This document shows, piece by piece, positions 4,084-25,290 of a stretch of 44,492 nucleotides of DNA. This DNA comes from a virus. Positions within the stretch are counted from its first letter, which is position 1. The number at the start of each line of letters is the position of its first letter. The notes under the pieces are model-generated. The model had not been told where the DNA came from, ran no database searches, and saw nothing but the letters and a program-made list of their open reading frames with translations. The DNA lies in the IMG/VR virus record IMGVR_UViG_3300034374_010659, positions 1-44,492 of that record; one strand, written 5' to 3'. A program made the position numbers and the translations under genes.

Positions 4084-4892
4084 TTTCTCTGTTTTTTTAA
4101 AAGTGTTAATAATTCAAAGGCACCTTGATATTTCTTCTGAAAATGCGGGCCTCTATTCATTCTCAGTTTTACTAAATTCCATGTTTCTACAAAGCAATCA
4201 ATACCCGCAACAATACCATGTTTTTGTATATATGCTTGAAACACAACATATTGTAATCTATTTGAATCTGTTTTTGTTAATAACTCACTGCAAGTCACTG
4301 GGCCACAGCCACTTAAACCTGTTATGTTATCAACAGTATCACCAATAAGCATTTGCTCCATAAGGTTCTTAAATGCCTGTTCCTTAGTAATTTCAATCAG
4401 TACATCATTTAAAATATCATAATGTGTACCCGGTACTTGCTTTAAGTCTTTATCTTCTGAATAGATAAAAGTATCTTCATCTTGAAGCATGCAGATCAAA
4501 TCATCTGCTTCCAATTCCGGATAAATGACACAAGGATAATTCTCTTTTAAATAATTCTCAATTTTGATTCGGTCTGAAAACTCTCTCGGATAAGCTTGTG
4601 CTTTTTGTGGTCGATTCCCTTTATACTGCTTTTCATAAGATACTGCATGTCTGAAATTCAAATGACGACTTCCGGAAAAACAAAGCAGTAAAGCCGGCGC
4701 ATCAATATGCGCCGTTACTTTACTTAATGCTTTATCTACTTCCGTAGGAATGTAGTTCATTTCTAAGTATGAAGGTGTTTTTTCATGCTGTTTTACAACA
4801 GATGATGTCACGATAAATCGCACAAAATCCGCATCAATCAAACCAATCTTATCGGTTTTAATTTTCTCTTTTGCTTTAATGAAAAAGTCCAT
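4080..4892 (-). CDS. 5'-3' exonuclease / flap endonuclease
   Basis: This 270-residue protein has the ordered acidic motifs of the FEN/PolA-N 5' nuclease family: LIDAD (19-22), a basic segment with YKGNRP (90-95), LEADD (127-131), SEDKDLKQ (145-152) and GDTVDNI (184-190), followed by the helix-hairpin-helix GLSGCGP (192-198). Family members cut 5' flaps and remove RNA primers at replication forks using two metal ions. It belongs to the leftward replication group with SSB and helicase. It overlaps its upstream neighbour by 17 bases. An 8-bp perfect hairpin lies in its coding sequence (4695-4714). Confidence 0.9.
   Translation of the reverse strand: MDFFIKAKEKIKTDKIGLIDADFVRFIVTSSVVKQHEKTPSYLEMNYIPTEVDKALSKVTAHIDAPALLLCFSGSRHLNFRHAVSYEKQYKGNRPQKAQAYPREFSDRIKIENYLKENYPCVIYPELEADDLICMLQDEDTFIYSEDKDLKQVPGTHYDILNDVLIEITKEQAFKNLMEQMLIGDTVDNITGLSGCGPVTCSELLTKTDSNRLQYVVFQAYIQKHGIVAGIDCFVETWNLVKLRMNRGPHFQKKYQGAFELLTLLKKQRK
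4695..4714. repeat. Intragenic perfect hairpin, 8-bp GC-rich arms
   Basis: CGGCGCAT pairs with ATGCGCCG around a 4-base loop, inside the exonuclease gene at codons for AHIDAP. It is strikingly GC-rich for this AT-rich gene. Confidence 0.6.
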
Positions 4893-5094
4893 AAATAAAA
4901 TTCACGATAAAAACTATTAAAAATATTGTTAGTGTTACAGGCCACAAGAATAAATCAAGTAATAAGACTTGGTGTCTTTTTTGATAATAATAGAGGTATT
5001 GTAAACTCCCAATTTTTGGTTCGGTAAACTTGTGAAACACATATCCAATAAAGAAATATGTAATCACTACAAATGCTATAGATATAAAACTCAT
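4876..5094 (-). CDS. Small two-helix membrane protein (72 aa)
   Basis: Residues 2-20 (SFISIAFVVITYFFIGYVF) and about 44-70 (LLLDLFLWPVTLTIFLIVFIVNFIYGLF) are strongly hydrophobic and separated by a charged, Tyr-rich loop (KFTEPKIGSLQYLYYYQKRHQ). This suggests a hairpin inner-membrane protein. It sits between the exonuclease gene, which it overlaps, and a small hypothetical gene. A holin-like or membrane-remodelling role is possible, but placement in the early block argues against a canonical holin. Confidence 0.6.
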   Translation of the reverse strand: MSFISIAFVVITYFFIGYVFHKFTEPKIGSLQYLYYYQKRHQVLLLDLFLWPVTLTIFLIVFIVNFIYGLFH

Positions 5095-5098
5095 GTTT

Positions 5099-5356
5099 TT
5101 ATTTTTTAGGAAGCCAACTCCTGTTAAATTCAGGCACTTTTTCAGTTTCGTTTTTCATTTCTATTTCAGTAATATCAATAGTGATATCTTCAGGTCTTAC
5201 AACCGTATAAGATCCTCTTGAACGTCTTTCAAGATTTTCCATTAATTGATAATAAGCAAGTACTGAAACTGATTGAAATACTCTACGGACAAAATGATTT
5301 TTAGCCCATATTCTGCCTAAATTCCCTGCAAGAATAAAGCCTCTTAGTATTGACAT
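5099..5356 (-). CDS. Small basic hypothetical protein (85 aa)
   Basis: The N-terminal half is basic and amphipathic (ILAGNLGRIWAKNHFVRRVFQSVSVLAYYQLMENLERRSRG) and the C-terminal half is acidic. There is no recognisable motif. It begins immediately downstream of the terminator at 5376-5403 that closes the SSB gene, so it may be expressed by read-through. Confidence 0.5.
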   Translation of the reverse strand: MSILRGFILAGNLGRIWAKNHFVRRVFQSVSVLAYYQLMENLERRSRGSYTVVRPEDITIDITEIEMKNETEKVPEFNRSWLPKK

Positions 5357-5375
5357 AATATGTATTTAGAAGGTT

Positions 5376-5403
5376 AAAATTGGGGAGCCAGAAACGGCTC
5401 CCC
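5376..5403 (-). terminator. Rho-independent terminator after the SSB gene
   Basis: GGGGAGCC (5382-5389) and GGCTCCCC (5396-5403) form a perfect 8-bp GC-rich stem with a 6-base loop. Read leftward, the stem is followed by an AATTTT tract. It lies 10 bases past the SSB stop codon at 5413 and ahead of gene 5099-5356, so it could lower expression of the genes further left. Confidence 0.8.
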
Positions 5404-5412
5404 TTTCTGATT

Positions 5413-6387
5413 TTAAAACGGCATATCATCATCCGAGATATCCGGCATTTTTATTTCAGGCATTGTATCCTGTGGTTCAATTACTTCTTGAACAGGTGGT
5501 AGAGGTGGCGCAGCAGGAGCTTCTTTTCCAATCCGCTTAGCTTTGCCATTAGCAACAAGTTGTTCCTCTGTCCAGCCACTTGCAATGTATTGCTCATACG
5601 TATAGTCTGTAGCAATCATTTGAACATTTCCTGTTGTAGGAATAGGAGCAGGTGCCGGAGCTGATGGAATAGTAGGCTTTTGTACAGATGGCTCACGTTT
5701 TACCGGAGCCTCACTGTTTTCATTGCTTTTATCCCAAATCATACCGCCACGTTGTAAATGTGCTTGTGCTTCATCACAACGTTTGATTTGCTCTCTGATT
5801 TTTGGTGGTACTTTTTTCCATGCTTCAGAGTTCCAACACGTTCCAGCATCATCAATAAGGAATGCATTAGGCTCATTGAACTTAACTACTTTTTCCCAAT
5901 CAAAAGAATACGATTGACGAATATGTTCAGAAGCAGGTCTAATCATCCCAATATTGTTGTAAACAATTGCAGGATCCTTCTTGCTTGGCTTGTTGAAAAT
6001 ATCAACAATAAACACCTTGCCAATGTACTTGCCTAAATTGTACCCATAACGGTATTCGCTTTCAAGTATAACACGTTCTTCAGCAACGTCAATAAACTTT
6101 TTCAAGTTTGAATTTTCAGCCAGTATAAAGTTAAATTCTTTGTTGCGTGCTGTTGGACGCAGCTCAGTATCAGTTTCGTAAAATAACTGTTTAAACAACG
6201 GAAATTCAAACATAAATTTGATTAATCGTTGTGATTTGTCAAAGTACTTATTGTACTGTGTACCCATATCAATAATAGAGTATAAAATTGCGGGATGTGG
6301 TCCTGCGGGTAGGTTCTTCACATCGTTTCTTTTGTTACTACTTGAACTTGAAGCAACAGTGAAATCTAAGGGCGTCTTATCGCTCAT
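5413..6387 (-). CDS. ssb: Single-stranded DNA-binding protein with acidic C-terminal tip
   Basis: This 324-residue protein has an N-terminal beta-rich domain (about 25-215), a low-complexity Pro/Ala/Glu linker (about 225-310) and ends DISDDDMPF. The final DDDMPF closely resembles the DDDIPF tip by which bacterial SSBs recruit replication and repair enzymes. The N-terminal domain (LPAGPHPAILYSIIDMG..., FEFPLF) suits the diverged OB-fold SSBs of Bacteroidota phages. It is likely an abundant early protein coating single strands at the phage fork. It ends with its own terminator and overlaps the upstream gene by four bases. Confidence 0.8.
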   Translation of the reverse strand: MSDKTPLDFTVASSSSSNKRNDVKNLPAGPHPAILYSIIDMGTQYNKYFDKSQRLIKFMFEFPLFKQLFYETDTELRPTARNKEFNFILAENSNLKKFIDVAEERVILESEYRYGYNLGKYIGKVFIVDIFNKPSKKDPAIVYNNIGMIRPASEHIRQSYSFDWEKVVKFNEPNAFLIDDAGTCWNSEAWKKVPPKIREQIKRCDEAQAHLQRGGMIWDKSNENSEAPVKREPSVQKPTIPSAPAPAPIPTTGNVQMIATDYTYEQYIASGWTEEQLVANGKAKRIGKEAPAAPPLPPVQEVIEPQDTMPEIKMPDISDDDMPF

Positions 6388-6740
6388 AATAATTTGTGTT
6401 TTAAAAATTGTTTTAGAAATAATCGTCTTGACTTAAAGCTTAACATAAAACCTGTTGCGCAGGAAAAGAAACCTTTAAACATAAATCTTCTTTTTTTCCG
6501 TTTGTGAATAATTGTTTTGTCTATTTCATATAAATAATCGGTTAAATAATTAGTAATTAAATCATAAGCTAATAAATAGCTTACATGATTTTCTTTTGCA
6601 CTGTCTGACACATGTTGTACAAATTCAGCTTTGTTAAATACATCGCTTTTTAAGTAATCGTAAGCGTCTTTTCGGGAAGTAAAAGTTCTCTGATTTTTAC
6701 TTTCAATTATGCGTTTAATATTACTGCTTTTTGGCATCAA
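6384..6740 (-). CDS. Basic hypothetical protein (118 aa)
   Basis: This 118-residue protein is predicted helical in the first 70 residues (SKNQRTFTSRKDAYDYLKSDVFNKAEFVQHV). It has a very basic, aromatic C-terminus (HKRKKRRFMFKGFFSCATGFMLSFKSRRLFLKQFLKHKLL). Its position between the HU-like gene and SSB suggests nucleic-acid or membrane association, but no family is recognised. Its stop overlaps the SSB start. Confidence 0.55.
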   Translation of the reverse strand: MMPKSSNIKRIIESKNQRTFTSRKDAYDYLKSDVFNKAEFVQHVSDSAKENHVSYLLAYDLITNYLTDYLYEIDKTIIHKRKKRRFMFKGFFSCATGFMLSFKSRRLFLKQFLKHKLL

Positions 6741-7028
6741 TTAGTAAACTGTTTTTTTCCGTAATAATTTTTTAAATGTTTGACTTACTTTAATATCGAG
6801 CACGTATTGTTTTGGCATATAATCAGTTTTGCCAGTTTGTAAATTGTGATAGTTATAGCCTTTACGCGCTCTTAAAAACAACGTACCTACTTTGTGAATG
6901 TAAAAAGATTCACCAAATGAAATACGTTTAAATATTTTCCGTTGTATGTACAAAAGCAAACGTTTTGCTTCTTTTTGTGTCAAGCCAAATTCTTTGGCTA
7001 CGTCTTTATCAAAATCGGATAATTTCAT
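6741..7028 (-). CDS. HU/IHF-like DNA-bending protein
   Basis: The 95-residue protein from the ATG at 7028 has the HU/IHF layout. Two N-terminal helices (KDVAKEFGLTQKEAKRLLLYIQRKIFKRI) are followed by IHKVGTLFLRARKGYNYHNLQTGKTDYMPKQYVLDIKVSQTFKKLL, which matches the beta-arm pattern of HU proteins (GTF-x-x-R-x-A-R-KG-NP-TG--I-IP). IHF-like proteins are common in crAss-like phages. An upstream TTG at 7046 is in frame but overlaps the -7 promoter element, so ATG 7028 is preferred. It probably organises phage DNA near the origin. Confidence 0.7.
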   Translation of the reverse strand: MKLSDFDKDVAKEFGLTQKEAKRLLLYIQRKIFKRISFGESFYIHKVGTLFLRARKGYNYHNLQTGKTDYMPKQYVLDIKVSQTFKKLLRKKTVY

Positions 7029-7043
7029 ACTAATTATTTTATT

Positions 7044-7051
7044 CAAATATA
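7044..7051 (-). promoter_or_regulatory. Bacteroidota-type -7 element before the HU-like gene
   Basis: Read leftward this is TATATTTG, an exact match to TAnnTTTG, placed 15 bases before the preferred ATG at 7028. I see no convincing -33 TTG at the right distance. It would give the HU-like, SSB and downstream genes their own promoter. Confidence 0.5.
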
Positions 7052-7088
7052 AATAAAAAGATTTAATATCGTCCTATATCCTACGAAA

Positions 7089-8456
7089 TTAATCATTATA
7101 AATTCCCATAACATTGTAGTTGTGGATTTTCATAGAAATGGGATTCATAAAGATTTTGATAGGTTTGGTTCCTACATCACGTCCTTTGGCAATAATGAAA
7201 TCAGTTTCAAACAATTCATTGTGAGGTACGATTTCACCCATTTGCTCTCTGTAATACCCGTCGCGATAAAAGAATGCTACAACGTCTGCATCTTCTTCAA
7301 TCGAGCTTGATTCTTTTAGATCCGATAAACGTGGTCTTTTATTAGGTCGTTCTTCTACTTTTCTTGAAAGCTGTGATAAACCAACCCAACACGCATTGTT
7401 AACGCGTGCAAAGTTTTTAAACTCTCTTGTTATCGTAGTAACAGTAACACGCAGTTCTGAAGGCTTACGCAAGCTCATACGCTGTATGTGGTCAACAAAG
7501 AATAATCGCACACCATGTTGTGCGTGCAATTCTTGTGCTTTTTCCATAATTTCTTCCAAATTGGAATACGCATCATAGATGTACAAATTTGATTCATCTA
7601 TTGTTTTACCAGCTGAAATGACTTCTCGTAATTCCTTATCAGTTAGATCACCTGATTTGATTTTTGCATAATCAATCTTAGTGATCTTACTTGCTATTTT
7701 ATTTTTCAATTGCCACTTGGACATTTCAAGTGAGAAAATAGCAACTTTGTTTCCAAGCGCTGAGGTTTCCCATGCGGAAATAACCATAAAGGTTGATTTC
7801 CCCATACCAGGTCTTCCTGCAAGTACGAAAAATTCACCGGGAGAATATCCAGCAGTAAAACTATCTATCGCACTTACTGTTGTAGGAATACCTGAAGTCT
7901 GCCCCTCTCTGTTTTTAGTTACGTTCTCAATCATACGTTGTTCGTAATCTACAGCTTCTTCAGTCAATCCTTGCGTCAATCTTTTATACAGACGCGAATA
8001 ATCATCTAAAAGCAAGTCTCCGCTAACAATTACGTCGCGACCATTCCAATTGCCGAATAACATATCTCTTGATTTGTTATTCCAAAAATCAAATAATATG
8101 TGCTCTTTGAGCAACATAATATTGTAATCAAGCAATGTATCAGTCGCTAACGCTTTTTGCGTTAGCGTTACACACGCTACGTCAAATTGAGCTGAATTAT
8201 TGTGTCGATACTTTTCAGGACGACGATCGCAAACTGATGTTAGAACAGGGTTAATTCCCTTTTCATAACATTGCATGATTGACCAAAACACTTCTTGGTG
8301 AATTTCTTGAAGGAAATCACCAGGAAGTAAGTTGTGTTTCAATACAATTTTTCGAACATTAGGACTGTAGCCTAATAAGATAATTGTACCTAAAATATCT
8401 TGTTCTACTTTCTCTCGAAAATAAACATCATAATTCTTCTCTACGGTTTGTTCCAT
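7089..8456 (-). CDS. dnaB: DnaB-type replicative helicase
   Basis: This 455-residue protein has the usual DnaB length and layout. A helical N-terminal domain (about 15-160) is followed by a RecA-like domain with Walker A GRPGMGKST (about 214-222), Walker B LFFVDHIQ (about 318-325), and a C-terminal motif LSDLKESSSIEEDADVVAFFYRD. Family members are hexameric 5'-3' helicases that unwind the fork. No primase is visible in the window, so it may use a host primase or one encoded elsewhere. A 9-bp perfect hairpin (8145-8167) lies near codons 97-104. Confidence 0.95.
   Translation of the reverse strand: MEQTVEKNYDVYFREKVEQDILGTIILLGYSPNVRKIVLKHNLLPGDFLQEIHQEVFWSIMQCYEKGINPVLTSVCDRRPEKYRHNNSAQFDVACVTLTQKALATDTLLDYNIMLLKEHILFDFWNNKSRDMLFGNWNGRDVIVSGDLLLDDYSRLYKRLTQGLTEEAVDYEQRMIENVTKNREGQTSGIPTTVSAIDSFTAGYSPGEFFVLAGRPGMGKSTFMVISAWETSALGNKVAIFSLEMSKWQLKNKIASKITKIDYAKIKSGDLTDKELREVISAGKTIDESNLYIYDAYSNLEEIMEKAQELHAQHGVRLFFVDHIQRMSLRKPSELRVTVTTITREFKNFARVNNACWVGLSQLSRKVEERPNKRPRLSDLKESSSIEEDADVVAFFYRDGYYREQMGEIVPHNELFETDFIIAKGRDVGTKPIKIFMNPISMKIHNYNVMGIYND
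8145..8167. repeat. Intragenic perfect hairpin, 9-bp arms, in the helicase gene
   Basis: CGCTAACGC pairs with GCGTTAGCG around a TTTTT loop. It encodes LTQKALA in the helicase N-terminal domain. Confidence 0.65.
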
Positions 8457-8458
8457 AT

Positions 8459-8704
8459 TTAATTAAAATAAAATTTACCATTACATTCCATATACCACTT
8501 TGGTGGTTCTATCTCCATAGAAACGCATGCAGAAATCTTTACAAGATTTTGCATTTCGTCTTCTCTTAAGGGATCTAAAGCAACGACAAGAAAATTTCGT
8601 TCATTTTCCATTGCTGTTTTCGGTAGTCGATGGAAGTCAATCATTACTTGATCTAAACCTCCTCTAAAAGTGTAAATACACTGTAGTTTAATTTCTTTTG
8701 CCAT
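8459..8704 (-). CDS. Small hypothetical protein (81 aa)
   Basis: This 81-residue protein has beta-strand-rich ends (IKLQCIYTFRGG, CNGKFYFN) and no recognised motif. It lies between the helicase gene and an 83-residue gene whose stop it overlaps. Function unknown. Confidence 0.55.
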   Translation of the reverse strand: MAKEIKLQCIYTFRGGLDQVMIDFHRLPKTAMENERNFLVVALDPLREDEMQNLVKISACVSMEIEPPKWYMECNGKFYFN

Positions 8705-8955
8705 TATTCAAATATTAGTTCAACGTGTTTTCCTATTTTAGTTCCTAAAGGATCTGCATCTAAATCTTTTCCATGTATAGAAAGACGTTCCGGATATTTT
8801 TTGAAAAACGCTATAATTTGAGTTTCTTCATGCAATCCGTAATCACCAGCCAAAATATCTACACTCGAAAGGTAAATAGGCTCTTCAAGTTCTGTTGTAA
8901 CGAAAATTGGTCTTGACCAAAAATCTATACTGTGAAATTTTACTTTTAGTTTCAT
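8704..8955 (-). CDS. Small hypothetical protein beside PRTRC ThiF (83 aa)
   Basis: The protein begins MKLKVKFHSIDFWSRPIFVTTE and contains DADPLGTKIGKHVELIFE near the end. The pattern of a beta strand, FxSRPVF-like motif and DPLG turn occurs in small phage and plasmid proteins. It overlaps the ThiF gene by four bases, so it is probably co-translated with it. It does not resemble PRTRC protein C, which is found at 19345-19551. Confidence 0.55.
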   Translation of the reverse strand: MKLKVKFHSIDFWSRPIFVTTELEEPIYLSSVDILAGDYGLHEETQIIAFFKKYPERLSIHGKDLDADPLGTKIGKHVELIFE

Positions 8956-9674
8956 ATCGTATTGGTTTTAACATTAGGTGGCGTTAAATTAAAATACACC
9001 TGAGAATATCCGATATTCATGTCAATGAGTAACGCCGACAGCATTTCCATAACGTATATTCCGGTAAGTTTATTAATCATAAAGCTTTGTTCATTGAGTG
9101 AAGCTCTCATTGAACAGCTTGGTTCTTCAGGTTTGTCTTCCATTTCAGGATATAAATCAATAATGGAAGGCAATTGTTCTTTCTTTTTACGACTGTAAGA
9201 CGCTAACACAATTTGTCCGTAATCTCTTGAATTACCCGCATCAATCCAATAATAGGTTTGTTTATAGCTATTGCCTTTTGGTTTTGTTGGCAAATGTTTG
9301 GCTAATTTACGTCGCAATTTGACATTATCAACACACGTAATGATGATGTTATCATCATTAAGGTCTTGTAGTAAAAATTCTTTATTAAAGAATTGTACAT
9401 TACTGCCATAGGCGCGATTCACACGCGTTGTAAGGACTTCTGCTTTGTATTTGCCTATATCGGGTGGAAAGAATTTTTGACGTCCTATATTGTGCTGTTC
9501 TACAATATCAGGGTCAAATACTTTAATGTTCAAAGGTCGTTTATCCAATTGCTTTAAAGATTCAGATAATGCGACCAGTTCAGGAAGTATAAAACTTCCG
9601 GTTCCCCCAACACCTATCAAGGTAACATTGATATTATGTGTCGGATTGGCTAAGTAATTATGAAGGCAAAACAT
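8952..9674 (-). CDS. PRTRC system ThiF family protein (E1-like adenylating enzyme)
   Basis: This 240-residue protein has a Rossmann start VTLIGVGGTGSFI (GxGGTG at about 21-26), then FDPDIVEQHNIGRQKF (acidic ribose-binding position and Arg finger, about 53-68), CVDN (114-117), WIDAGNSRDYGQIVL (143-157) and a late Cys in PSCSMR (187). This is the E1/ThiF/MoeB fold, which adenylates the C-terminus of a ubiquitin-like or sulfur-carrier protein. Adjacency to PRTRC protein B identifies it as the PRTRC ThiF. The substrate is unknown. It overlaps the B gene by 17 bases. Confidence 0.85.
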   Translation of the reverse strand: MFCLHNYLANPTHNINVTLIGVGGTGSFILPELVALSESLKQLDKRPLNIKVFDPDIVEQHNIGRQKFFPPDIGKYKAEVLTTRVNRAYGSNVQFFNKEFLLQDLNDDNIIITCVDNVKLRRKLAKHLPTKPKGNSYKQTYYWIDAGNSRDYGQIVLASYSRKKKEQLPSIIDLYPEMEDKPEEPSCSMRASLNEQSFMINKLTGIYVMEMLSALLIDMNIGYSQVYFNLTPPNVKTNTI

Positions 9675-10338
9675 GTTTCAGTTTTTTAAATGGTTTCAGC
9701 ATTTTCTTAGGAAAAGGTTTCTTTTGATTGAATAATCCTGCATGAAACTTTTTATCGTTTCTCATAAGTTCTGTTGTGAACTGAGAAGAAAAGAACACAT
9801 TCTCCAAGTTTCGCATAATTGTATTAATGCTTTCGCTATACACACGTTCTCGTTTGATATTTCCCCAACACAAGTTATTGTCTTGATAGATGTTAGGAAA
9901 TGGCAATCTGTAAAGCATCGTATCAGGAGTAACGTTTGTAGTTTTCAAAGCGTATAAATACAACTGATTTTCTTTCATGAAAAACAGTATGTTAGGATAA
10001 TACAACATACGCTCTTTTTTACCTTTTTGATAATAAGGTTTGTAGTCACCTTTAACGACCCAAGCAACTTCCGGATACATACCATAAACGGAATAATACA
10101 CAACATTTTGAGGAATGAAATTGTGGTCAAAATGTGCAAACGCACCTTTTGTTTCGTTTTGTTGCTGTAAGTCTTTTAACAAGCCTTGTATGGCTTTATA
10201 AGAGATTGGTTTGTATACAGGGTTAGTATCTAAATCAACGCTATACTCCGCATAAATCTCATTTTCAGATTTAAAAAAGATAATGTCAAAATAAGGTGTT
10301 AATTCTTTTCTTGACAATTCTGATATTAATTCGTTCAT
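9658..10338 (-). CDS. PRTRC system protein B
   Basis: The 226-residue length, the core LYYPNILFFMKENQLYLYALKTTNVTPDTMLYRLPFPNIYQDNNLCWGN (about 116-165), and the directly following ThiF gene all fit PRTRC protein B. The family pattern is P-L-F-x-L-x-V-A-L, then P-lyr-PF-NV, then G-C-WGN. The family is known from plasmids and mobile elements in cassettes with ThiF, and its biochemical role is unknown. The ATG at 10338 is in the AATTATG context. Confidence 0.75.
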   Translation of the reverse strand: MNELISELSRKELTPYFDIIFFKSENEIYAEYSVDLDTNPVYKPISYKAIQGLLKDLQQQNETKGAFAHFDHNFIPQNVVYYSVYGMYPEVAWVVKGDYKPYYQKGKKERMLYYPNILFFMKENQLYLYALKTTNVTPDTMLYRLPFPNIYQDNNLCWGNIKRERVYSESINTIMRNLENVFFSSQFTTELMRNDKKFHAGLFNQKKPFPKKMLKPFKKLKHVLPS

Positions 10339-19064: not shown

Positions 19065-19075
19065 AATTTCTGATT

Positions 19076-19348: not shown

Positions 19349-19551
19349 CCTTTAGTACCTAAATTGGCTGTAAAGGTGTAAACAGCTTTACCATCTTCAA
19401 TGATTGGTCCTTCTACTGTAGCGTTGGCTAAAGCAGGATGTTTGTCGCTATAATATTTAGCGATTTGAAGCTCTGTCATGCTCCCTGAAACATCAGGTAA
19501 CACTTCGTCTTTATATTTAAAGACGCGTTCTAATTGTCTACTTGTTCCCAT
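19345..19551 (-). CDS. PRTRC system protein C
   Basis: This 68-residue protein matches PRTRC protein C across its whole length: RVFKYKDEVLPDVSGSMTELQIAKYYSDKHPALANATVEGPIIEDGKAVYTFTANLGTKG. The family pattern is R-F-Y-g---LpDP---ms-eevr-fYs--yPeLttA-veGP-v-dg--vYtF--avGtKG. PRTRC C is a small partner protein of unknown biochemistry, and its strictly conserved Gly-Thr-Lys-Gly end invites comparison with tails activated by ThiF-type enzymes. It is coupled to PRTRC E at a shared base. An 8-bp hairpin (19506-19525) lies near its start. Confidence 0.85.
   Translation of the reverse strand: MGTSRQLERVFKYKDEVLPDVSGSMTELQIAKYYSDKHPALANATVEGPIIEDGKAVYTFTANLGTKG
19506..19525. repeat. Intragenic perfect hairpin, 8-bp arms, in the PRTRC C gene
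   Basis: CGTCTTTA pairs with TAAAGACG around a TATT loop, at about codons 10-15. Confidence 0.5.
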
Positions 19552-20462
19552 TATTTTCCGTAATTATCAATTAATTTAAATAGTTTGTGTATGCTTTCCA
19601 CTGTTTGTTCGTCTTTGTTGATGCCAGTCAGTGTAAGCCCTTGTTTCTTAGCTTTCTCTCGAAGTTTTACCCACTCTGTTTCCACTGTAAGCTCTTTTGT
19701 AGCGTTGGCTAAATCAGCTAAACTTACTTGTGGTTGTGGGTATACTGAACCACCAGGCACCGGAATTGGAGCTGTTTTTGCACGCTCTTTAATACGCTCT
19801 CTGATAGTTGGTAATTCTGCAATTTCCTCAGGAGTTTTCGGAGGAGGAGGTGCTGTCATAGGTTCAAAAACGTCATCAGGATCCATTAAAGGTAATTCGT
19901 CAGGAGAAGCGTATGCTTCTTCCAACAATTCCTGTTCTTCTTCAGTAAGTATTAACGTACCTTGTGTTGTCGTTTTACTTTCTGATTTAGCTTCAATCGG
20001 TTTGGTTTCAACCTTTTCCTCTACAGGAGGAGGTTTAGGTTCCGATTTCTTTTCAGGCTTTTCGGGTTCTGTTGCTTGTGCAAACAGGTCCGGTTTGCTT
20101 TCTGATTTTGCTTCAGATTTGCCTTCTACTTTCGCAGTTGTTTTCTTTGCAGTAGTTTTCTTTGTAGCTTCTTTAGCTTTCGCAGTCAAATCTTTTTCAG
20201 CGTCCTCTAATGCCTTTGCTAAAGAATTGATACGTTCTACATTAGTTTGATGCGTATTTAAGAACTGTTGTAAGTCTTGTTGCATCATTTGTTCGATTTC
20301 TTCAGGTGTACCTTCAAATTCTAAAGGTGACACATTAAAGTCTGTTTTACTTGTTCGTAAGTTGAACTGTAAGAACATGTGAAGTTCACCAGCATTCTTA
20401 GATGGTGAAATTTTGAGTGTCACATCTAAGTGCGACACTACAGGTAATAGTGTTTGTAACAT
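19551..20462 (-). CDS. PRTRC system protein E
   Basis: This 303-residue protein immediately upstream of PRTRC C has the expected N-terminal domain (FLQFNLRTSKTDFNVSPLEFEGTPEEIEQMMQQDLQQFLNTHQTNVERINSLAKALEDAEKD), with a beta hairpin, the phrase PL-f-GTpeEId, and a helical pair. A long low-complexity Lys/Glu/Ser/Pro linker follows (about 95-230), then a short helical tail (about 245-303). The E-C order is that of Bacteroidota PRTRC cassettes. Function unknown; the linker suggests a scaffold that joins partners. Confidence 0.75.
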   Translation of the reverse strand: MLQTLLPVVSHLDVTLKISPSKNAGELHMFLQFNLRTSKTDFNVSPLEFEGTPEEIEQMMQQDLQQFLNTHQTNVERINSLAKALEDAEKDLTAKAKEATKKTTAKKTTAKVEGKSEAKSESKPDLFAQATEPEKPEKKSEPKPPPVEEKVETKPIEAKSESKTTTQGTLILTEEEQELLEEAYASPDELPLMDPDDVFEPMTAPPPPKTPEEIAELPTIRERIKERAKTAPIPVPGGSVYPQPQVSLADLANATKELTVETEWVKLREKAKKQGLTLTGINKDEQTVESIHKLFKLIDNYGK

Positions 20463-20467
20463 AATAA

Positions 20468-20839
20468 TTAAGTATTTAATAATTGATATTCTAAAGCATC
20501 GTAGGTCAAGGTCATTGATTCTATACGTGCCATTAAACTTTCCAAATATTCTTTAAATTTTACATCATCATTACAAATGTAGTATCCTTTAGATGATGAT
20601 GCTAATCTTGGTACCAGTCCATGTACACGAATGTACTGAACTATTTTTCTAAGTTTCGGTGGCTTAACTTTAAATCCACTTGTTGGTGGAAAGTTATTTA
20701 GCCCTTGACACATTTCTTTGTTAGTGATTGCATTATCACTACCAATGTGTCTTTTTAGTCCTTTGACCACAAACGGTACTAACAACCGAATTTCTTCAGC
20801 TGTTAGATCCGAAGTAAAGTCTTCAAATCCTTGTAACAT
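20468..20839 (-). CDS. Winged-helix phage DNA-binding protein (putative)
   Basis: The segment NAITNKEMCQGLNNFPPTSGFKVKPPKLRKIVQYIRVHGLVPRLASSSKGYYICNDDVKFKEYLESLMARI (about residues 36-108) follows a phage winged-helix pattern (I-n-eIc---k---G-ki-spklRkII-yIR----iP-Lias-KGYy---d-ee---yi-Sl--Ri). It likely binds DNA as a regulator or replication accessory. It sits directly upstream of the PRTRC E gene, so it is a candidate regulator of that pair. Confidence 0.55.
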   Translation of the reverse strand: MLQGFEDFTSDLTAEEIRLLVPFVVKGLKRHIGSDNAITNKEMCQGLNNFPPTSGFKVKPPKLRKIVQYIRVHGLVPRLASSSKGYYICNDDVKFKEYLESLMARIESMTLTYDALEYQLLNT

Positions 20840-20841
20840 AG

Positions 20842-21153
20842 TTATTGTTTTCTTTTTTGCCTTTCAATTCTAAGCATAGCTATTGAAAGTTGTGGTGAAC
20901 AGTACATTACATTACCAGTAAAATCGCGGTTAAATCTTCCATTATTTTCTTTACTAAAACGTATTGGAAACCATTTTCCATTATCATCGCAGTCATAGAA
21001 AACAAAATCACGTGGATCTACTTTTTTTTCTGCTACTTTGAGCATTATCCATCGAATGGATATTTCATCTGCCATGTACAGTTTGCCTTGGTATTTAACC
21101 ATCGCAGTTTCATGTACAGGTATGTCTGTAAAAACTTGTCTTATATTTTTCAT
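20842..21153 (-). CDS. Hypothetical protein (103 aa)
   Basis: This 103-residue protein (MKNIRQVFTDIPVHETAMVKYQGKLYMADEISIRWIMLKVAEKKVDPRDFVFYDCDDNGKWFPIRFSKENNGRFN...) has a compact alpha/beta composition and no recognised motif. It starts the run that leads into the winged-helix and PRTRC genes, with gaps of only a few bases. Confidence 0.55.
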   Translation of the reverse strand: MKNIRQVFTDIPVHETAMVKYQGKLYMADEISIRWIMLKVAEKKVDPRDFVFYDCDDNGKWFPIRFSKENNGRFNRDFTGNVMYCSPQLSIAMLRIERQKRKQ

Positions 21154-21169
21154 AAGTTATTGTTTTAAA

Positions 21170-21430
21170 TTATTCACGCCAATAATTGTATATCTCAATG
21201 TATTCGAAATTTTTATGTTTTCGAGATATTACAACTTGTTTCCATTCTTTTACAAATGCCATAAGTTCATCAACAGTTTCAAACTTAATTTTTGGTTCAC
21301 CTTCAATAACTAAATCTCCTGATTCTTCATATGGAGAAAATGTAAATCCAAGTTCTTTAAGCTTTTTCATTTCTTTCTCGTGTTCCTTTTCATCATAATG
21401 GAATCGAGTAGTACGTAAGTTAAGTTCCAT
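21170..21430 (-). CDS. Small hypothetical protein (86 aa)
   Basis: This 86-residue protein (MELNLRTTRFHYDEKEHEKEMKKLKELGFTFSPYEESGDLVIEGEPKIKFETVDELMAFVKEWKQVVIS...) has the alternation of a helix, the strand LGFTF and a later helix seen in small phage proteins. No function is known to me. The gap to the next gene is four bases. Confidence 0.55.
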   Translation of the reverse strand: MELNLRTTRFHYDEKEHEKEMKKLKELGFTFSPYEESGDLVIEGEPKIKFETVDELMAFVKEWKQVVISRKHKNFEYIEIYNYWRE

Positions 21431-21433
21431 GTC

Positions 21434-21856
21434 TTAGTCAAATTGTTTACGCTTTCTGTATTGTCTTCGCACTCTTGGTGCATACTGTGTAGTATACAAG
21501 AATCCAAACACACTAAAGGCACCAGCGATAACAACACCGCTTTTCATAATCAGGACAACTCCTGTACCGAATAGGATAAGGTCAACAATCTTATCTCCAC
21601 GTTCTACAAGCCATTTTACATACTTGTTTGTTTCTGAAACAGCAACAAAGCCTGCGAACAGTAATGTACCGCCAGCTATGATACTTGTAACTACAGCAGT
21701 ACTTGCTATTACAGCTGTTGCTATCAGACCTCCAGCAATGAACAGTCCTGTTCTATTACTGATAAGGGTTTCTTTCGGTAAATCAAACAAAGGACGAGCT
21801 TCGTGTGTTATACAAAGCTCATCCAATGCAGATCTTTTTTGACTATATCTGCTCAT
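21434..21856 (-). CDS. Multi-pass membrane protein (140 aa)
   Basis: Residues about 37-73 (GLFIAGGLIATAVIASTAVVTSIIAGGTLLFAGFVAV) and about 91-122 (IVDLILFGTGVVLIMKSGVVIAGAFSVFGFLY) are strongly hydrophobic and glycine-rich, giving three or four membrane helices. The C-terminus is very basic (RVRRQYRKRKQFD), probably cytoplasmic. It could anchor phage complexes at the membrane or alter host surface properties; nothing more specific is supported. Confidence 0.6.
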   Translation of the reverse strand: MSRYSQKRSALDELCITHEARPLFDLPKETLISNRTGLFIAGGLIATAVIASTAVVTSIIAGGTLLFAGFVAVSETNKYVKWLVERGDKIVDLILFGTGVVLIMKSGVVIAGAFSVFGFLYTTQYAPRVRRQYRKRKQFD

Positions 21857-21861
21857 GTTTA

Positions 21862-22725
21862 TTATTTTAAATCTGCTACGCTTTTCTTTTTAGGAACAAA
21901 TCTTCCTATTAGATTGACAGGAGCCATAATAATAGTAGCGTTTCTATTGAAAGCTGCTGCTCTTAGTTCTGCTACAGATTTGTCTGTATAGTTAATCTTA
22001 TTTCTAAGATTGGCTTCTGCTTTGTATCCTTGCTCTGAGAATTTCAAGAGCGCGCTACCAGCGTAGATAAATCCTGATCCTAATAGTTCACCGCTTAAGG
22101 TAAGTGGTGTTGTAATTCCAATTGCTACTTTATCAGCAATGTTTAACAGTGTTGTTTTCATGTTATTATTGTTTTTAATTAGTATTGGGTGTTCTTCTTC
22201 GGCGTCCACTGTTTCCGTTTTTAAATGACCATACTTTTGTTCCATTTTTTCATATTGCGCTTCACAATAATCTTTGATGTATTGTCCAAACTGTTCTCTG
22301 GTTAAATGGAATCGAAGCATTGATTGCTCTCTGTGTTGTTCTAACTGACAACGTTCTAAGAGTGCCTGTTCAGGTTCTTGGTAAGGAACGTCAGGAAGAA
22401 TATCTTGAATTTTCCAATTAGAAAAGTCCATATCTTCTAATGCGTTTAACAAGTCTTCACTTGAAATGTAATGCGCTGAAGGCAGTGCTAACTGCTCACG
22501 CGTTTGAAGTATCTCTCCTGTTTCATAATCTTGCATTGCAGGATTGTAGATATCTTCTACTTCGAAGTATTCCACAAGCTCTACAGGTATCATACTATTT
22601 TCAAGTATGTTATCTCTCCACTCTGAAGGAGTGGTGCCACTGTCTTTAGCAAGGTGGAATTTATAATTCCCCTGCTCATCAACCATCATAAAATGGTTAT
22701 CGGTTTCTACAAGTTGTAGTTTCAT
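21862..22725 (-). CDS. Two-part hypothetical protein (287 aa), possible in-frame fusion
   Basis: The first part (about 1-180) is soluble and acidic. A short Asn linker (KNNNN) precedes an internal Met at about residue 189 (ATG 22161), after which a distinct glycine-rich, hydrophobic segment begins (MKTTLLNIADKVAIGITTPLTLSGELLGSGFIYAGSALLKF). The sequence before that ATG looks like this block's usual A/T-rich leader, so an independent start is possible. It is the first gene of the large leftward block, transcribed out of the control region at 22726-23189. No family is recognised. Confidence 0.55.
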   Translation of the reverse strand: MKLQLVETDNHFMMVDEQGNYKFHLAKDSGTTPSEWRDNILENSMIPVELVEYFEVEDIYNPAMQDYETGEILQTREQLALPSAHYISSEDLLNALEDMDFSNWKIQDILPDVPYQEPEQALLERCQLEQHREQSMLRFHLTREQFGQYIKDYCEAQYEKMEQKYGHLKTETVDAEEEHPILIKNNNNMKTTLLNIADKVAIGITTPLTLSGELLGSGFIYAGSALLKFSEQGYKAEANLRNKINYTDKSVAELRAAAFNRNATIIMAPVNLIGRFVPKKKSVADLK

Positions 22726-22801
22726 TTTTAAAAGTTTTAAAAATTTTGGATTTTTTAAAAATAAACATCCTAATATATTACTAACGTAACATACTAAGAT
22801 T

Positions 22802-22874
22802 GTAGTACCTATGACAGCAAACTACTATACTCAAGCGATAAGTACTGTTAATAGTACTAAAGTGAGTACTGTAG
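22802..22874. promoter_or_regulatory. Cluster of AGTACTGT-like half-sites
   Basis: TGTAGTACC (near 22802), AGTACTGTTA (22841), TAGTACTAA (near 22853) and GAGTACTGTAG (near 22865) are repeats of the same AGTACTGT element that also forms the palindromes at 23075-23132. The shared element suggests binding sites for one protein, possibly iterons or operators, ahead of the leftward block. Confidence 0.5.
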
Positions 22875-22880
22875 CCTTAC

Positions 22881-23066
22881 TACATAGTTTCTTATAAGTA
22901 ATTTATAAGAGCTCAAACCTGCAACTAACTGCAAAGCTCAGCCGATAGGGTCTGCTCGAAGTCCAAAGGCACGAACATCTCGATAGAGATAAAGTATATA
23001 TAACTCTAAACGCTTAAAATACGGCCTTAGCCCTTTATTGGCGCTGTCTACAGCGATTTTAAGGGG
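22881..23066. other. Non-coding control segment with structured elements
   Basis: No credible gene is seen here on either strand. Visible structure includes GAGCT/AGCTC arms near 22909-22939, and a nested hairpin near 23031-23066 in which CGCTGT/ACAGCG (23042-23055) sits within CCCTT/AAGGG. No exact leftward TAnnTTTG element was found, so the promoter for the leftward block is not located. A structured RNA or origin element is possible. Confidence 0.35.
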
Positions 23067-23074
23067 GTCTCTAC

Positions 23075-23132
23075 AGTACCAAAGCTCATTGGTACTCTAC
23101 AATTTACAGTACCAAAGCTTGTTGGTACTGTA
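23075..23132. promoter_or_regulatory. Two tandem palindromic operators or iterons
   Basis: AGTACCAA/TTGGTACT with a 6-base spacer occurs at 23075-23096. A longer copy, TACAGTACCAA/TTGGTACTGTA, occurs at 23105-23132 (11-bp arms). The two copies are 33 bases apart, about three helical turns, and share the inner AGCT. The second abuts the -33 element of the following promoter, a natural place for autoregulation by the winged-helix protein encoded downstream. Confidence 0.7.
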
Positions 23133-23134
23133 GA

Positions 23135-23166
23135 TTTGTCTATTCCATGTCTTTTTCCTACATTTG
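23135..23166 (+). promoter_or_regulatory. Bacteroidota promoter for the RepL-like gene
   Basis: TTTG (23135-23138), 20 bases of spacer and TACATTTG (23159-23166) fit the Bacteroidota consensus TTTG-N(about 19-21)-TAnnTTTG. The predicted start of transcription lies about 17 bases before the ATG at 23190. TAGATTTG at 23131-23138 is an alternative -7 element that would overlap the operator. Confidence 0.7.
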
Positions 23167-23189
23167 ATCCATCTCTAAATCATTGTTCC

Positions 23190-23585
23190 ATGTCTAAAAA
23201 GATCACTAAGAATGTTCGTCGTTATGTCGAACGACACCGTCGTCAGTACCAAACCAAAGACTTCATCTTTGATGCGTACAATCCTCCTAATACCATGTTT
23301 AAGGTGGCCAATGAGCTCCCCGTCGTGCTGTTACAGTTGCCTAACAATGTCATTAGACTATATCTGCTCCTGTTAACCAAGTTAAAGAGGAATCCAGATA
23401 TCGCAAAGGCATGTACTGTTCAGGTCGCTCCTATTGACGTGGTCTTTATGAGTCGTAACACCTTTTACAAATGCATCAATATACTCCATGATAAAGAGCT
23501 GGTCTTAAAGACAGACCAAGACTTTACTTACATCATTAATATTCAGTATGCCAATAAATTGTATAGTCCAAAGCCAGAGATTTAA
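23190..23585 (+). CDS. Winged-helix, RepL-like replication/regulatory protein
   Basis: I chose the ATG at 23190 (131 aa); the longer frame needs a TTG inside the promoter. After a basic N-terminus (SKKITKNVRRYVERHRRQYQTKDF), the core NVIRLYLLLLTKLKRN...PIDVVFMSRNTFYKCINILHDKELVLKTDQDFTYIINIQYANKLY (about 61-126) fits a winged helix. That core includes an MSRxTFYKxIxxLxxKxLV recognition helix and an YIINxxYxxKL tail, like RepL-type plasmid initiators. The palindromes upstream are its likely targets. It is either a replication initiator or an autoregulated switch protein. Confidence 0.6.
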   Translation: MSKKITKNVRRYVERHRRQYQTKDFIFDAYNPPNTMFKVANELPVVLLQLPNNVIRLYLLLLTKLKRNPDIAKACTVQVAPIDVVFMSRNTFYKCINILHDKELVLKTDQDFTYIINIQYANKLYSPKPEI

Positions 23586-23594
23586 AAATTCTCT

Positions 23595-23602
23595 TATATT
23601 TG
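23595..23602 (+). promoter_or_regulatory. Orphan -7 element TATATTTG
   Basis: This is an exact TAnnTTTG match ten bases past the RepL-like stop codon. It points into an 80-base segment that ends in a terminator (23663-23687). I see no -33 TTTG at the right distance, so strength is uncertain. Confidence 0.45.
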
Positions 23603-23622
23603 TACCATCGTATTGACATACA

Positions 23623-23676
23623 ATGCAACAATGGTTTTTTAGAGATATCGTTGTAAAACAAGAAGGAGAGCTATGA
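23623..23676 (+). CDS. Candidate 17-residue micro-ORF within a short transcript
   Basis: The frame MQQWFFRDIVVKQEGEL lies between the orphan -7 element at 23595 and the terminator at 23663-23687. The transcript would be roughly 80 bases, so it may instead be a small non-coding RNA. The micro-ORF could be chance; the promoter-terminator pairing is the stronger evidence. Confidence 0.25.
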   Translation: MQQWFFRDIVVKQEGEL

Positions 23677-23687
23677 CAGCTCTCCTT
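23663..23687. terminator. Bidirectional terminator between convergent genes
   Basis: AAGGAGAGCT and AGCTCTCCTT form a perfect 10-bp stem with a 5-base loop. Rightward it is followed by TTCTTTATT, leftward by TTCTTGTTTT. It overlaps the TAG stop of gene 23671-24192 and closes both the RepL-like and leftward transcripts. Confidence 0.75.
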
Positions 23688-24192
23688 TCTTTATTACTTG
23701 TGCATACGGAAGTACGATGCTCCTTGTTATCTCTTCTGAAGTTTTTACAAGATCACATTTCATGTAACGCTTCCAAGCACTGATCTTCTTACGTCCAGTT
23801 AAATACTTCTGCTTGTAGATGTTCCAATAAGGTGCTTCATCTACAGCACATAATTGGAAGTTCTCCGGAATGTTACTACCGTCAGTTGGTTTGAAATGTT
23901 TCAGTACAAATGGATTCTTCCAGTAGTTAGGTTCATTGTCAGTGGACCAGAACCATTGTCCTACATAATCGTCACCAAGCAACAGACGTATGGCAGCATA
24001 CTTAGGATCTGTTGCTATTTCTTTTCGATTGCGTATCCTCCATAACAGTACTGAGGAAATACTAACTGCTAATCGTGTAATATCTGAACGAAAATCAAAC
24101 CAGTTGTTGTCTGTTTCAGATGTTTGTACTTTAATGACAGCAGTTTTGTTTTGCTCATTGATACTCTCGATAAAATATCCATACTTTTTCAT
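23671..24192 (-). CDS. Hypothetical protein (173 aa)
   Basis: I prefer the ATG at 24192 (MKKYGYFIESINEQNKTAVIKVQTSETDNNWFDFRSDITRL). The frame extends to 24276, but that would overlap the upstream gene by 46 bases. It has a beta-rich N-terminus, a central helix (AVSISSVLLWRIRNR) and a Trp-rich segment (VGQWFWSTDNEPNYWKNPF). No family is recognised. It ends in TAG inside the terminator. Confidence 0.55.
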   Translation of the reverse strand: MKKYGYFIESINEQNKTAVIKVQTSETDNNWFDFRSDITRLAVSISSVLLWRIRNRKEIATDPKYAAIRLLLGDDYVGQWFWSTDNEPNYWKNPFVLKHFKPTDGSNIPENFQLCAVDEAPYWNIYKQKYLTGRKKISAWKRYMKCDLVKTSEEITRSIVLPYAQVIKKGELS

Positions 24193-24230
24193 TGTGTTTG
24201 TGCCTGTTTCCAGGACTTTATTAATTAATA

Positions 24231-24464
24231 TTAGTTTAAGATATGCCATTGATCTCGGCACTTGAATCGCAGCCATGCTGCGGTGCTACGTAGCTTATTA
24301 ATGCTACGTTGTAGCTCCTTACGAGGAACTATGTAGTTCTCATCCGCCAAAGCCATGAGACTGATCAACGAGTGATCTTCTCTTAGCCTTTGGACTTCGT
24401 TGCTGAGATGGATAGCTCTATCCATTCCAGCTAAATGTTTACTTGTAATAAAGGTCATTTCCAT
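24231..24464 (-). CDS. Small helical protein (77 aa) with chained hairpins
   Basis: This 77-residue, mostly helical protein (GMDRAIHLSNEVQRLREDHSLISLMALADENYIVPRKELQRSINKLRSTAAWLRFKCRD) could be a small DNA-binding or adaptor protein, but no motif is decisive. Its coding sequence is nearly continuous inverted repeat: CGCAGC/GCTGCG near 24269-24283, GCTACGTAGC and GCTAC/GTAGC near 24285-24314, GAACTA/TAGTTC near 24326-24339, and ATGGATA/TATCCAT at 24408-24425. Confidence 0.5.
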   Translation of the reverse strand: MEMTFITSKHLAGMDRAIHLSNEVQRLREDHSLISLMALADENYIVPRKELQRSINKLRSTAAWLRFKCRDQWHILN

Positions 24465-24717
24465 TCCATTTATGTTTTGGTGCTTCTCCTACTATATCTA
24501 ACCATCTCTTGTCTTTAATAAAAGACGGCCAGTATTCTTCTATATGCATCATAGCATATTGTTCGACTTTATCATATGTGGTGTTCCACATAGGTGTTTG
24601 ATAGTTGAACTTGTCATTAGTATCATTGACATATGATGTCAATAGTTTTACTGTGTGTAAAGGGCATTTACTGCCCTTTTGTTTCCAATTCTTTTTGAAA
24701 AAATCATTTGTTTTCAT
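24439..24717 (-). CDS. Small hypothetical protein (92 aa)
   Basis: This 92-residue protein (MKTNDFFKKNWKQKGSKCPLHTVKLLTSYVNDTNDKFNYQTPMWNTTYDKVEQYAMMHIEEYWPSFIKDKRW...) has no recognised motif. Perfect hairpins occur at 24659-24679 (AAAGGGCA/TGCCCTTT), 24625-24643 (ATTGACAT/ATGTCAAT) and 24575-24592 (TATGTGG/CCACATA), so most of the gene is foldable. The start uses the AATTATG context. Confidence 0.5.
   Translation of the reverse strand: MKTNDFFKKNWKQKGSKCPLHTVKLLTSYVNDTNDKFNYQTPMWNTTYDKVEQYAMMHIEEYWPSFIKDKRWLDIVGEAPKHKWNGNDLYYK
24625..24643. repeat. Intragenic perfect hairpin, 8-bp arms
   Basis: ATTGACAT pairs with ATGTCAAT around a 3-base loop, in codons for LTSYVND of gene 24439-24717. 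Confidence 0.55.
24659..24679. repeat. Intragenic perfect hairpin, 8-bp arms
   Basis: AAAGGGCA pairs with TGCCCTTT around a 5-base loop, in codons for KGSKCPL of gene 24439-24717. Rightward it is followed by TGTTT. Confidence 0.55.
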
Positions 24718-24731
24718 AATTGTTTATGTTT

Positions 24732-24899
24732 TTATTGGTTATGTAATTTGCGCATATCGCGCTTAAACTGTAATTCGTCAAAAGCTTTCTTAAAGCTTTT
24801 AGACTCCTCAATAGCTAACTCTTTAGCAAGAGTGGCTTTCAATCGAAATATCTTCTCTTCTAAAGAGAGATATTTGATTCTTTTACGTTTGTTTTTCAT
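24732..24899 (-). CDS. 55-residue basic helical protein
   Basis: The frame MKNKRKRIKYLSLEEKIFRLKATLAKELAIEESKSFKKAFDELQFKRDMRKLHNQ is complete, with its ATG at 24899 in the usual start context and TAA at 24732. It is highly basic and probably one helical hairpin, a composition typical of small nucleic-acid-binding phage proteins. Two strong inverted repeats (24780-24800 and 24846-24875) cover about 50 of its 168 bases. Confidence 0.55.
   Translation of the reverse strand: MKNKRKRIKYLSLEEKIFRLKATLAKELAIEESKSFKKAFDELQFKRDMRKLHNQ
24780..24800. repeat. Intragenic perfect hairpin, 9-bp arms, 3-base loop
   Basis: AAAAGCTTT pairs with AAAGCTTTT around CTT, in codons for SKSFKKAF of gene 24732-24899. 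Confidence 0.6.
24846..24875. repeat. Intragenic 13-bp hairpin with one bulge
   Basis: AAATATCT plus CTCTT pairs with AAGAG plus AGATATTT, with one bulged T and a 3-base loop, in codons for KYLSLEEKIF of gene 24732-24899. Confidence 0.6.
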
Positions 24900-24924
24900 A
24901 ATAGATTTGATTTAAGATTAATAT

Positions 24925-25290
24925 TTATTCTCCCATTGCTACTTCGGTGCTGAATTTAACAGCAGAAGCTACTAATGCACCCATACCGGCCCACATAGAG
25001 CCAGTTAAAAGACCTGCAAATACTTTATGCCAGAAGGGAGCAGCCACCTTCTCAGCAAGGAATAACGCTTGTGTTCCAGAGCTATTAACTCCTACCATAG
25101 TCATCTTTGTGACTGTCAGTTTAGATATTGCAGACACTATAAATGGACTTGCAATCGCCGCTGTTAATACGGCCCCTGCTATCATTCTTTCATTGTCGGA
25201 TAAGCTATTCCACCATAGCTTAGCCTGTTTAACAGAGCGTAATTGTGTAAGCTCCTTAATTCTTGTGATGATTTGGTCTTGTGTTTTCAT
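24925..25290 (-). CDS. Small membrane protein (121 aa)
   Basis: A soluble helical N-terminus (residues 1-32) precedes hydrophobic segments at about 33-52 (MIAGAVLTAAIASPFIVSAI) and about 88-110 (HKVFAGLLTGSMWAGMGALVASAV), giving a two-pass membrane protein. It is the first leftward gene after the divergent control region at 25291-25491. The N-terminal region contains an 8-bp perfect hairpin (TAAGCTAT/ATAGCTTA, 25201-25222). Function unknown; a role in the membrane phase of infection is possible. Confidence 0.6.
   Translation of the reverse strand: MKTQDQIITRIKELTQLRSVKQAKLWWNSLSDNERMIAGAVLTAAIASPFIVSAISKLTVTKMTMVGVNSSGTQALFLAEKVAAPFWHKVFAGLLTGSMWAGMGALVASAVKFSTEVAMGE

Follow-up and report, generated by a model that had tools for sequence, protein, structure and literature searches.

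Coding sequences have been described as under selection for the strength of local mRNA folding, by means of the delta-LFE profile (Peeri and Tuller, 2020; PMC7063772), which, measured like ours against protein-controlled randomised sequences, combines a weak fold at the start codon with a strong fold inside the gene and peaks 30–70 nt downstream. Small inverted repeats in yeast coding sequences have been attributed to template switching (PMC8604942), and coding palindromes are described from Nematomorpha mitochondria (PMC6649704). The coding sequences of MS2, a single-stranded RNA phage, hold many local stems. The early block of phage N4 is transcribed by a giant virion-borne polymerase, and this enzyme recognises hairpin promoters of conserved sequence. 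crAss-like phages are among the most abundant gut viruses; to our knowledge, the function of their early genes and the constraint acting on them are mostly unknown.

The stretch of DNA analysed here (the window, 44,492 nucleotides) shares features with each of these systems. Its folding excess has a course similar to that of delta-LFE; however, its peak begins at about +18, and the excess reaches approximately four times the amplitude of the controls (E. coli, a Bacteroides plasmid and two non-crAss Bacteroidota phages), is strongest in one transcription block and includes long perfect hairpins. As in MS2, there are many local stems and the antisense/sense ratio of the excess is equal (0.82 in the leftward block of the window vs 0.79 in the RNA genome), whereas the present phage has double-stranded DNA, an excess per window about half that of MS2, and more common perfect arms. 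Like the repeats attributed to template switching, those found here are perfect and lie inside coding sequence, but their arms span 7–11 bp and not up to hundreds. In contrast to the N4 promoters, the hairpins are located within coding sequence and have no obvious common motif. Signals of this kind are known, whereas the strength of this one and its restriction to the early block in this phage order appear to be new; a literature search did not find coding-sequence structure in crAss-like early genes described, which is no proof of its absence.

The window and its gene blocks

The window represents part of a crAss-like phage genome (Crassvirales), an assignment with which its portal, its terminase and its divergent early and late blocks fit. 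PHROG matches were obtained for terminase and portal, the latter being 25% identical to that of cr113_1 over 86%. The leftward block (4695..25300, minus strand) is the early block of replication and accessory genes, among them a DnaB-like helicase (7089–8456), a ThiF-like gene (8952–9674) and an ArdC-like gene (11379–12290), and is followed by promoter-distal leftward genes (837..4892, minus strand) that include an exonuclease (4080–4892). The rightward, late block (25789..44490, plus strand) encodes the terminase (27276–29540), the portal (29533–31857) and a putative major head protein (33051–34760). A second metagenome contig (G001) shares 18 kb with the window at 99.4% identity, differing mainly in a few recombined tracts, and encodes a 4050-aa protein adjoining the shared sequence. 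This protein had no match among Pfam and PHROG models; its motif GSDNDGD matches the catalytic motif GSDFDID of phi14:2 gp66, by which it would represent the giant virion RNA polymerase that marks Crassvirales. The comparative set consisted of 14 crAss-like genomes or contigs, that is, the window phage and 13 relatives.

Perfect hairpins in the early block

An exhaustive scan for perfect inverted repeats with arms of at least 9 bp and loops of 3–13 nt yielded 20 in 4695–25300, against 1.4 ± 1.2 expected by chance (maximum 6 in 100 local dinucleotide shuffles). The original prediction had listed eleven with arms of 9–11 bp, and all eleven are present at their positions. Those with 9-bp arms, all on the minus strand as are the following, include 8145..8167 (loop 5, in the DnaB-like helicase gene), 14068..14094 (loop 9, 29 nt from a start codon) and 17057..17078 (loop 4). 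Arms of 10 bp are found at 11104..11131 (loop 8), 11547..11570 (loop 4, in the ArdC-like gene), 11796..11824 (loop 9, absent from the earlier list), 13214..13237 (loop 4, 42 nt from a start codon), 16133..16163 (loop 11) and 19188..19217 (loop 10), and arms of 11 bp at 15165..15199 (loop 13) and 17616..17640 (loop 3, 22 nt from a start codon). The scan added nine hairpins (9338, 11796, 14785, 15690, 16624, 22724, 22735, 23105 and 23663), several of which sit outside genes or at gene edges. Eight of nine hairpins previously given as 8 bp were recovered, the one at 15690 having in fact 9-bp arms; the ninth, at 24408, fell outside the scan because the two 8-bp arms of this palindrome enclose a loop of only 2 bases. 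The bulged stem proposed near 24846 also appears in the fold.

Within the leftward coding sequence (4876–25290), 15 such repeats compare with 1.75 after synonymous-codon shuffling (maximum 6 in 300), so the excess persists when protein and codon use are kept, and with 1.8 when dinucleotides are kept as well. The rightward coding sequence has three (30833, 37627 and 43509), near the chance level of 0.8–1.0; the claim that it holds none of that size was incorrect, whereas the claimed contrast between strands stands in the full scan. Neither outcome named beforehand as a refutation, equal counts in codon-preserving shuffles or a lack of strand bias, was thus obtained. The leftward enrichment is confined to 4695–25300: the genes to the left of about 4700 lack it (837..4892, one repeat of at least 8 bp vs 1.2 expected). 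In coding sequence the excess extends to all arm lengths of at least 6 bp (139 vs 66–72 expected) and is limited to loops shorter than about 20. Mirror and direct repeats in the window occur at chance level only, so the excess is specific to inverted repeats. This, with the dinucleotide, synonymous and dicodon shuffles, excludes a composition artefact. An assembly or amplification artefact was rejected, as the hairpins of at least 9 bp in the stretch shared with the second contig (to 20699) are identical there. Arm and loop sequences differ, which agrees with the earlier view that the hairpins are not a dispersed repeat family.

The densest, hairpin-tiled stretch (24220..24930, minus strand) covers three small genes (24732–24899, 24439–24717 and 24231–24464), with a folding energy of -190.8 vs -129.9 ± 3.8 kcal/mol (z -16); in the last of these genes the excess amounts to -5.2 kcal/mol for each 45-nt segment. 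An Rfam search of this stretch returned nothing above the gathering score, by which a known structured RNA was rejected. Such density and the repeatable distance of hairpins from start codons would suit specific regulatory elements, each hairpin being a processing site, a protein-binding site or a translational operator. We regard this as very unlikely, given the differing loops and arms, the Rfam result and the lack of positional conservation: hairpin positions showed no correlation between orthologues, and close relatives, aligned at low depth, gave neither a common motif nor a conserved position. Compensatory change was only weakly above control (41 vs 27). The control of translation or decay suggested originally is, as far as specific conserved elements are concerned, unsupported, as positions are not conserved.

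Between cr113_1 and cr109_1 (97% identity), eight hairpins differ at one position of a single arm, another has two changed bases in one arm, and two more differ in both arms, with few events overall; the close relatives differ mostly by single substitutions and not by template-switch blocks. These observations bear on another cause that had been proposed, namely DNA-level template switching, within or between strands, which during replication would perfect near-palindromes wherever selection tolerates them. It would account for an excess that is strongest for perfect arms with short loops, involves inverted repeats but neither mirror nor direct ones, lacks conserved positions and varies among relatives of similar folding excess. 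The turnover by mostly one base in one arm speaks against it, as do three properties documented below: a G-U-derived sense-strand bias, unexpected from a strand-symmetric process, an early–late contrast inside one replicating molecule, and a start-codon gap with a downstream peak. The bias, the gap and the turnover point to RNA. As a general explanation template switching is therefore disfavoured and, in our estimate, unlikely, though it may have helped to form the perfect hairpins seen here.

Local folding of the mRNA

Local structure of the mRNA is in excess more broadly, with the perfect hairpins as the extreme tail. Folding was quantified as dMFE, the mean 45-nt folding energy relative to dicodon shuffles in which protein, codon use and dinucleotides stay unchanged. 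On the sense strand of the leftward block (4695..25300) dMFE per 45 nt was -1.33 kcal/mol (z -19). The promoter-distal leftward genes, with no excess of perfect repeats, still reached -0.82 (z -5.7), and the rightward block had -0.53 sense and -0.27 antisense, with a moderate excess in the terminase, portal and capsid genes and virtually none in most genes downstream. The sense-minus-antisense difference in the window was negative on both sides (z -4.9 left, z -4.5 right), the larger sense-strand excess being due to G-U pairs; this bias was negative in every early block analysed. Arms with a single G-U as against a single A-C mismatch occur in the window in numbers too small for a verdict. Third codon positions mildly prefer pairing with first or second ones (25, 23 and 15), which is not decisive.

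Segments at the start codon have no folding excess, and the maximum lies about 20 nt downstream, with -3.0 ± 0.5 for the window and -1.69 ± 0.20 when pooled, the peak extending over about 20–60 nt. In early crAss-like genes, synonymous codon choice forms more short-range hairpins than chance. The many coding-sequence hairpins are most likely there because early mRNA is selected for general local folding, of which they would be the visible extreme; we consider this reading probable, and among the three causes proposed originally it is the best supported, by the sense bias, the open starts, the downstream peak and the early–late contrast across genomes reported below. The selected property would be the overall foldedness of the transcript and no particular element. 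This signal would be a second, protein-independent constraint on crAss-like early genes, whose synonymous sites are probably not neutral.

Early and late genes across crAss-like phages

Early genes were more structured than late ones in all 14 members of the comparative set (p about 1e-4 in a sign test), so that the early block of uncultured genomes might be predictable from the signal. The late genes of cr113_1 were analysed with TAG read as glutamine (TAG is a sense codon, 278 in frame). The excess of perfect repeats differs among relatives of similar folding excess, G003 having almost none, and folding alone may thus not explain the perfection of the hairpins.

The early/late folding boundary resembles that between transcription by virion and by host polymerase: phi14:2 forms its early and middle transcripts under rifampicin by means of the virion RNA polymerase, and the host RNAP is credited with late transcription (PMC10136315). 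Bacteroidota, furthermore, are without Shine-Dalgarno sequences (PMC6847099). Early messages would then be made by the phage's own virion polymerase, lacking the transcription–translation coupling that the host enzyme provides, and read by ribosomes without Shine-Dalgarno recognition. Hairpins would most likely restrict ribonuclease access between ribosomes, thereby protecting these messages, and keep the ribosome close to the start site, thereby pacing them. Both the polymerase link and the benefit, be it for mRNA stability, translation or transcript release, are our inference; the signal offers a testable link of mRNA structure with the type of polymerase and with uncoupled transcription in such hosts. 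A stronger version, according to which messages of the injected polymerase are written as chains of hairpins that fold as they are made, releasing the transcript from the DNA template of a polymerase of the RNA-silencing type or shielding uncoupled early RNA against nucleases of the host and RNA-targeting defence, appears rather improbable to us; if true, it would be a coding rule throughout the phage order, tied to polymerase type.

The boundary is not sharp, since the terminase, portal and capsid genes of environmental contigs are intermediate (-0.6 to -0.9), and the early excess falls as genes lie farther from the divergent region; the polymerase may accordingly matter less than timing, expression level or position. 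It is possible, if on the doubtful side, that the fastest or most abundantly expressed genes (immediate-early accessory genes, capsid) are folded independently of the polymerase. The gradient and the raised values around the capsid gene agree with this, as does the correlation of folding strength with protein abundance in yeast, at least as cited in PMC5683454 (Zur and Tuller, 2012). However, the head genes of cr113_1, at -0.25, show no elevation, and replication genes far from the divergent region stay at -0.6 against a baseline of about -0.3. The main reading is further supported by crAss001, in which the polymerase-subunit genes have the late value (-0.38) and not that of early/middle genes (-0.65); the former lie on the early/middle strand, yet among cargo genes, mostly expressed late.

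Some observations run against a polymerase link: the contrast is modest in phi14:2 (early -0.52 vs late -0.39) and virtually nil in one contig, G015 (-0.32 vs -0.30), and T7, whose middle and late genes are transcribed by a phage polymerase, has almost no folding excess. N4, where the early block belongs to the virion polymerase as would be the case here, speaks for the link, with -0.8 for early/middle genes and -0.38 for late genes.

Inverted repeats and general folding excess

From its portal and terminase sequences, the window is assigned to the crAss-like phages. Its rightward block (25789-44490) carries the terminase, portal, head and tail genes, and its leftward block, which encodes a DnaB-like helicase, an exonuclease, ArdC-like and ThiF-like proteins and numerous small genes, is by gene content the block of early or replication functions. 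All eleven hairpins with 9-11-bp arms originally noted in the leftward genes were recovered in place by an exhaustive scan of the window, together with nine additional ones of this size. The resulting 20 in 4695-25300 compare with a mean of 1.4 and a maximum of 6 in 100 local dinucleotide shuffles, and by the same shuffles the remainder of the window is near chance. Within coding sequence, 15 were observed against 1.75 expected from synonymous-codon shuffles, which preserve each protein and its codon counts, and against 1.8 when the swaps additionally preserve every dinucleotide. The originally noted contrast between leftward and rightward genes was borne out as well, since rightward coding sequence has 3 repeats of this size against about one expected. 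The excess begins at 6-bp arms, is limited to loops shorter than about 20 bases and occurs only in inverted repeats, mirror and direct repeats being at chance level. In the intergenic tract at 23075-23132, near the divergent region, overlapping nested AGTACCAA / TTGGTACT palindromes are clustered.

Folding of 45-nt windows was compared with shuffles keeping protein, codon counts and dinucleotides. The folding excess per window (more negative meaning more structure) was -1.33 kcal/mol in the leftward block (4695-25300; z -19), -0.82 in the promoter-distal far-left genes (837-4892) and -0.53 in the rightward block. This excess of local structure is a general one, of which the perfect repeats form the tail. 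Within the window, structure peaks at 24220-24930 (711 nt, z -16), where hairpins cover three small leftward genes; this stretch is a candidate for a separately functional RNA.

Strand bias, start-codon profile and conservation

Watson-Crick stems are identical on both strands, whereas G-U pairs fold one strand only. The sense excess surpassed the antisense excess beyond shuffles in both the left (z -4.9) and the right block (z -4.5), and the sense bias was negative in the early block of all crAss-like genomes tested. The antisense/sense ratio of the window, 0.82, matches that of MS2 RNA (0.79). Windows over the start codon had no folding excess, and the strongest excess lay immediately downstream. 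It reached -3.0 ± 0.5 for leftward genes of the window and, at +20 from the start in ten pooled genomes or contigs, -1.69 ± 0.20. An open start followed by a downstream peak is the canonical profile for mRNA-folding selection (PMC7063772). A DNA-level process producing the hairpins symmetrically between strands predicts neither the sense bias nor the start-codon gap and downstream peak, although strand-biased C-to-T mutation could contribute some sense-strand G-U pairs.

Orthologous genes show no coincidence of local structure at homologous positions (z 0.4-1.2 for the early ones). Among gut crAss-like phages about 84% identical to each other, double compensatory changes at paired positions were in modest excess (41 vs 27). 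The quantity of structure is conserved, whereas its placement is not. Template switching would be expected to leave multi-base changes, but of the few hairpin differences between genomes at 97% identity, most are one base in one arm. Long perfect arms occur in the window, cr113_1 (a crAss-like phage) and one metagenome contig, G012, but not in another, G003, despite similar folding excess; they may be due to weak constraint on the proteins of small, rapidly evolving genes, or in part to template switching.

We prefer the reading that general local folding of early mRNA is under selection. The start site would be kept open, with a hairpin placed one ribosome-length downstream and further hairpins along the rest of the gene. 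Such folding might protect messages transcribed without transcription-translation coupling, and might aid initiation in Bacteroidota, where mRNAs are devoid of Shine-Dalgarno sequences (PMC6847099). Signals of this kind, from local mRNA-folding selection within coding sequence, are already known; their strength here, their focus on the early block and their repeated occurrence across the phage order appear undescribed, as judged from a limited literature search.

Relatives, comparison genomes and transcription programme

In all 14 crAss-like genomes or contigs (the window, ten terminase-related contigs from other metagenomes, cr113_1, crAss001 and phi14:2), folding was stronger in early than in late genes, the difference being negligible in contig G015 and modest in phi14:2. 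For folding, cr113_1 late genes were read with TAG as Gln. With 278 in-frame TAG codons, compared with 4 among the early genes, they require this code; table-11 ORF calling breaks them into fragments.

Controls (Bacteroides phage B124-14, Cellulophaga phage phiST, a Bacteroides plasmid and E. coli) gave around -0.2 to -0.35, T7 -0.14 to -0.21, the first 50 kb of T4 -0.36, and Tenacibaculum phage Larrie, slightly above the other controls, -0.41 to -0.47. N4, which likewise injects a polymerase, reached -0.8 in early and middle genes against -0.38 in late ones, and MS2 RNA -2.38. Perfect inverted repeats of at least 7 bp are depleted in T7 coding sequence (7 vs about 21), opposite to crAss-like early genes.

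Up to 8 kb from the terminase, the early excess in ten pooled genomes or contigs was -1.3 to -1.5, and beyond that distance about -0.6. On the late side, pooled values were -0.6 to -0.9 for head genes, about 0 for the next region (mainly tail genes), and about -0.3 at 26-45 kb downstream, polymerase included; in environmental phages, head genes are intermediate between early and late values. In the published programme, the virion polymerase transcribes early and middle genes and the host polymerase probably the late ones, most cargo-protein genes being of the late class (PMC10136315). The polymerase-subunit genes of crAss001 (53.2-64.8k) lie on the early/middle strand but have a late folding value. 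The folding excess tracks this programme well, if inexactly. That expression level or timing sets the folding excess is a serious rival to a link with the polymerase.

Further features of the window and its closest relative

Contig G001, about 99.4% identical to the window over 18 kb, extends past its left end and there encodes a 4050-residue protein. This matched no Pfam or PHROG model; its GSDNDGD motif, the equivalent of GSDFDID in the virion RNA polymerase of phi14:2, and its gene position point to a putative virion RNA polymerase. Whole divergent tracts at 18010-18520 and 2347-2698 separate the two otherwise nearly identical sequences, and represent an exchanged gene and a recombined allele of a recombination mosaic.

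The gene at 16195-17157 encodes a phrog_4400 protein, common to many unrelated Vibrio, Sulfitobacter and Tenacibaculum phages and annotated in some of them as tRNA nucleotidyltransferase or poly(A) polymerase; an RNA-tailing enzyme within the hairpin-rich block is possible. Besides the ThiF-like protein at 8952-9674 of the window, a protein annotated as ThiF occurs in the crAss001 middle block, adjoining a metalloprotease-domain protein. The rightward open-ended gene at 39757-44490 (at least 1578 residues) repeats a motif like INTATTTSSVLTANGSL in its later portion, and its folding excess is slightly positive, in contrast to its neighbours.
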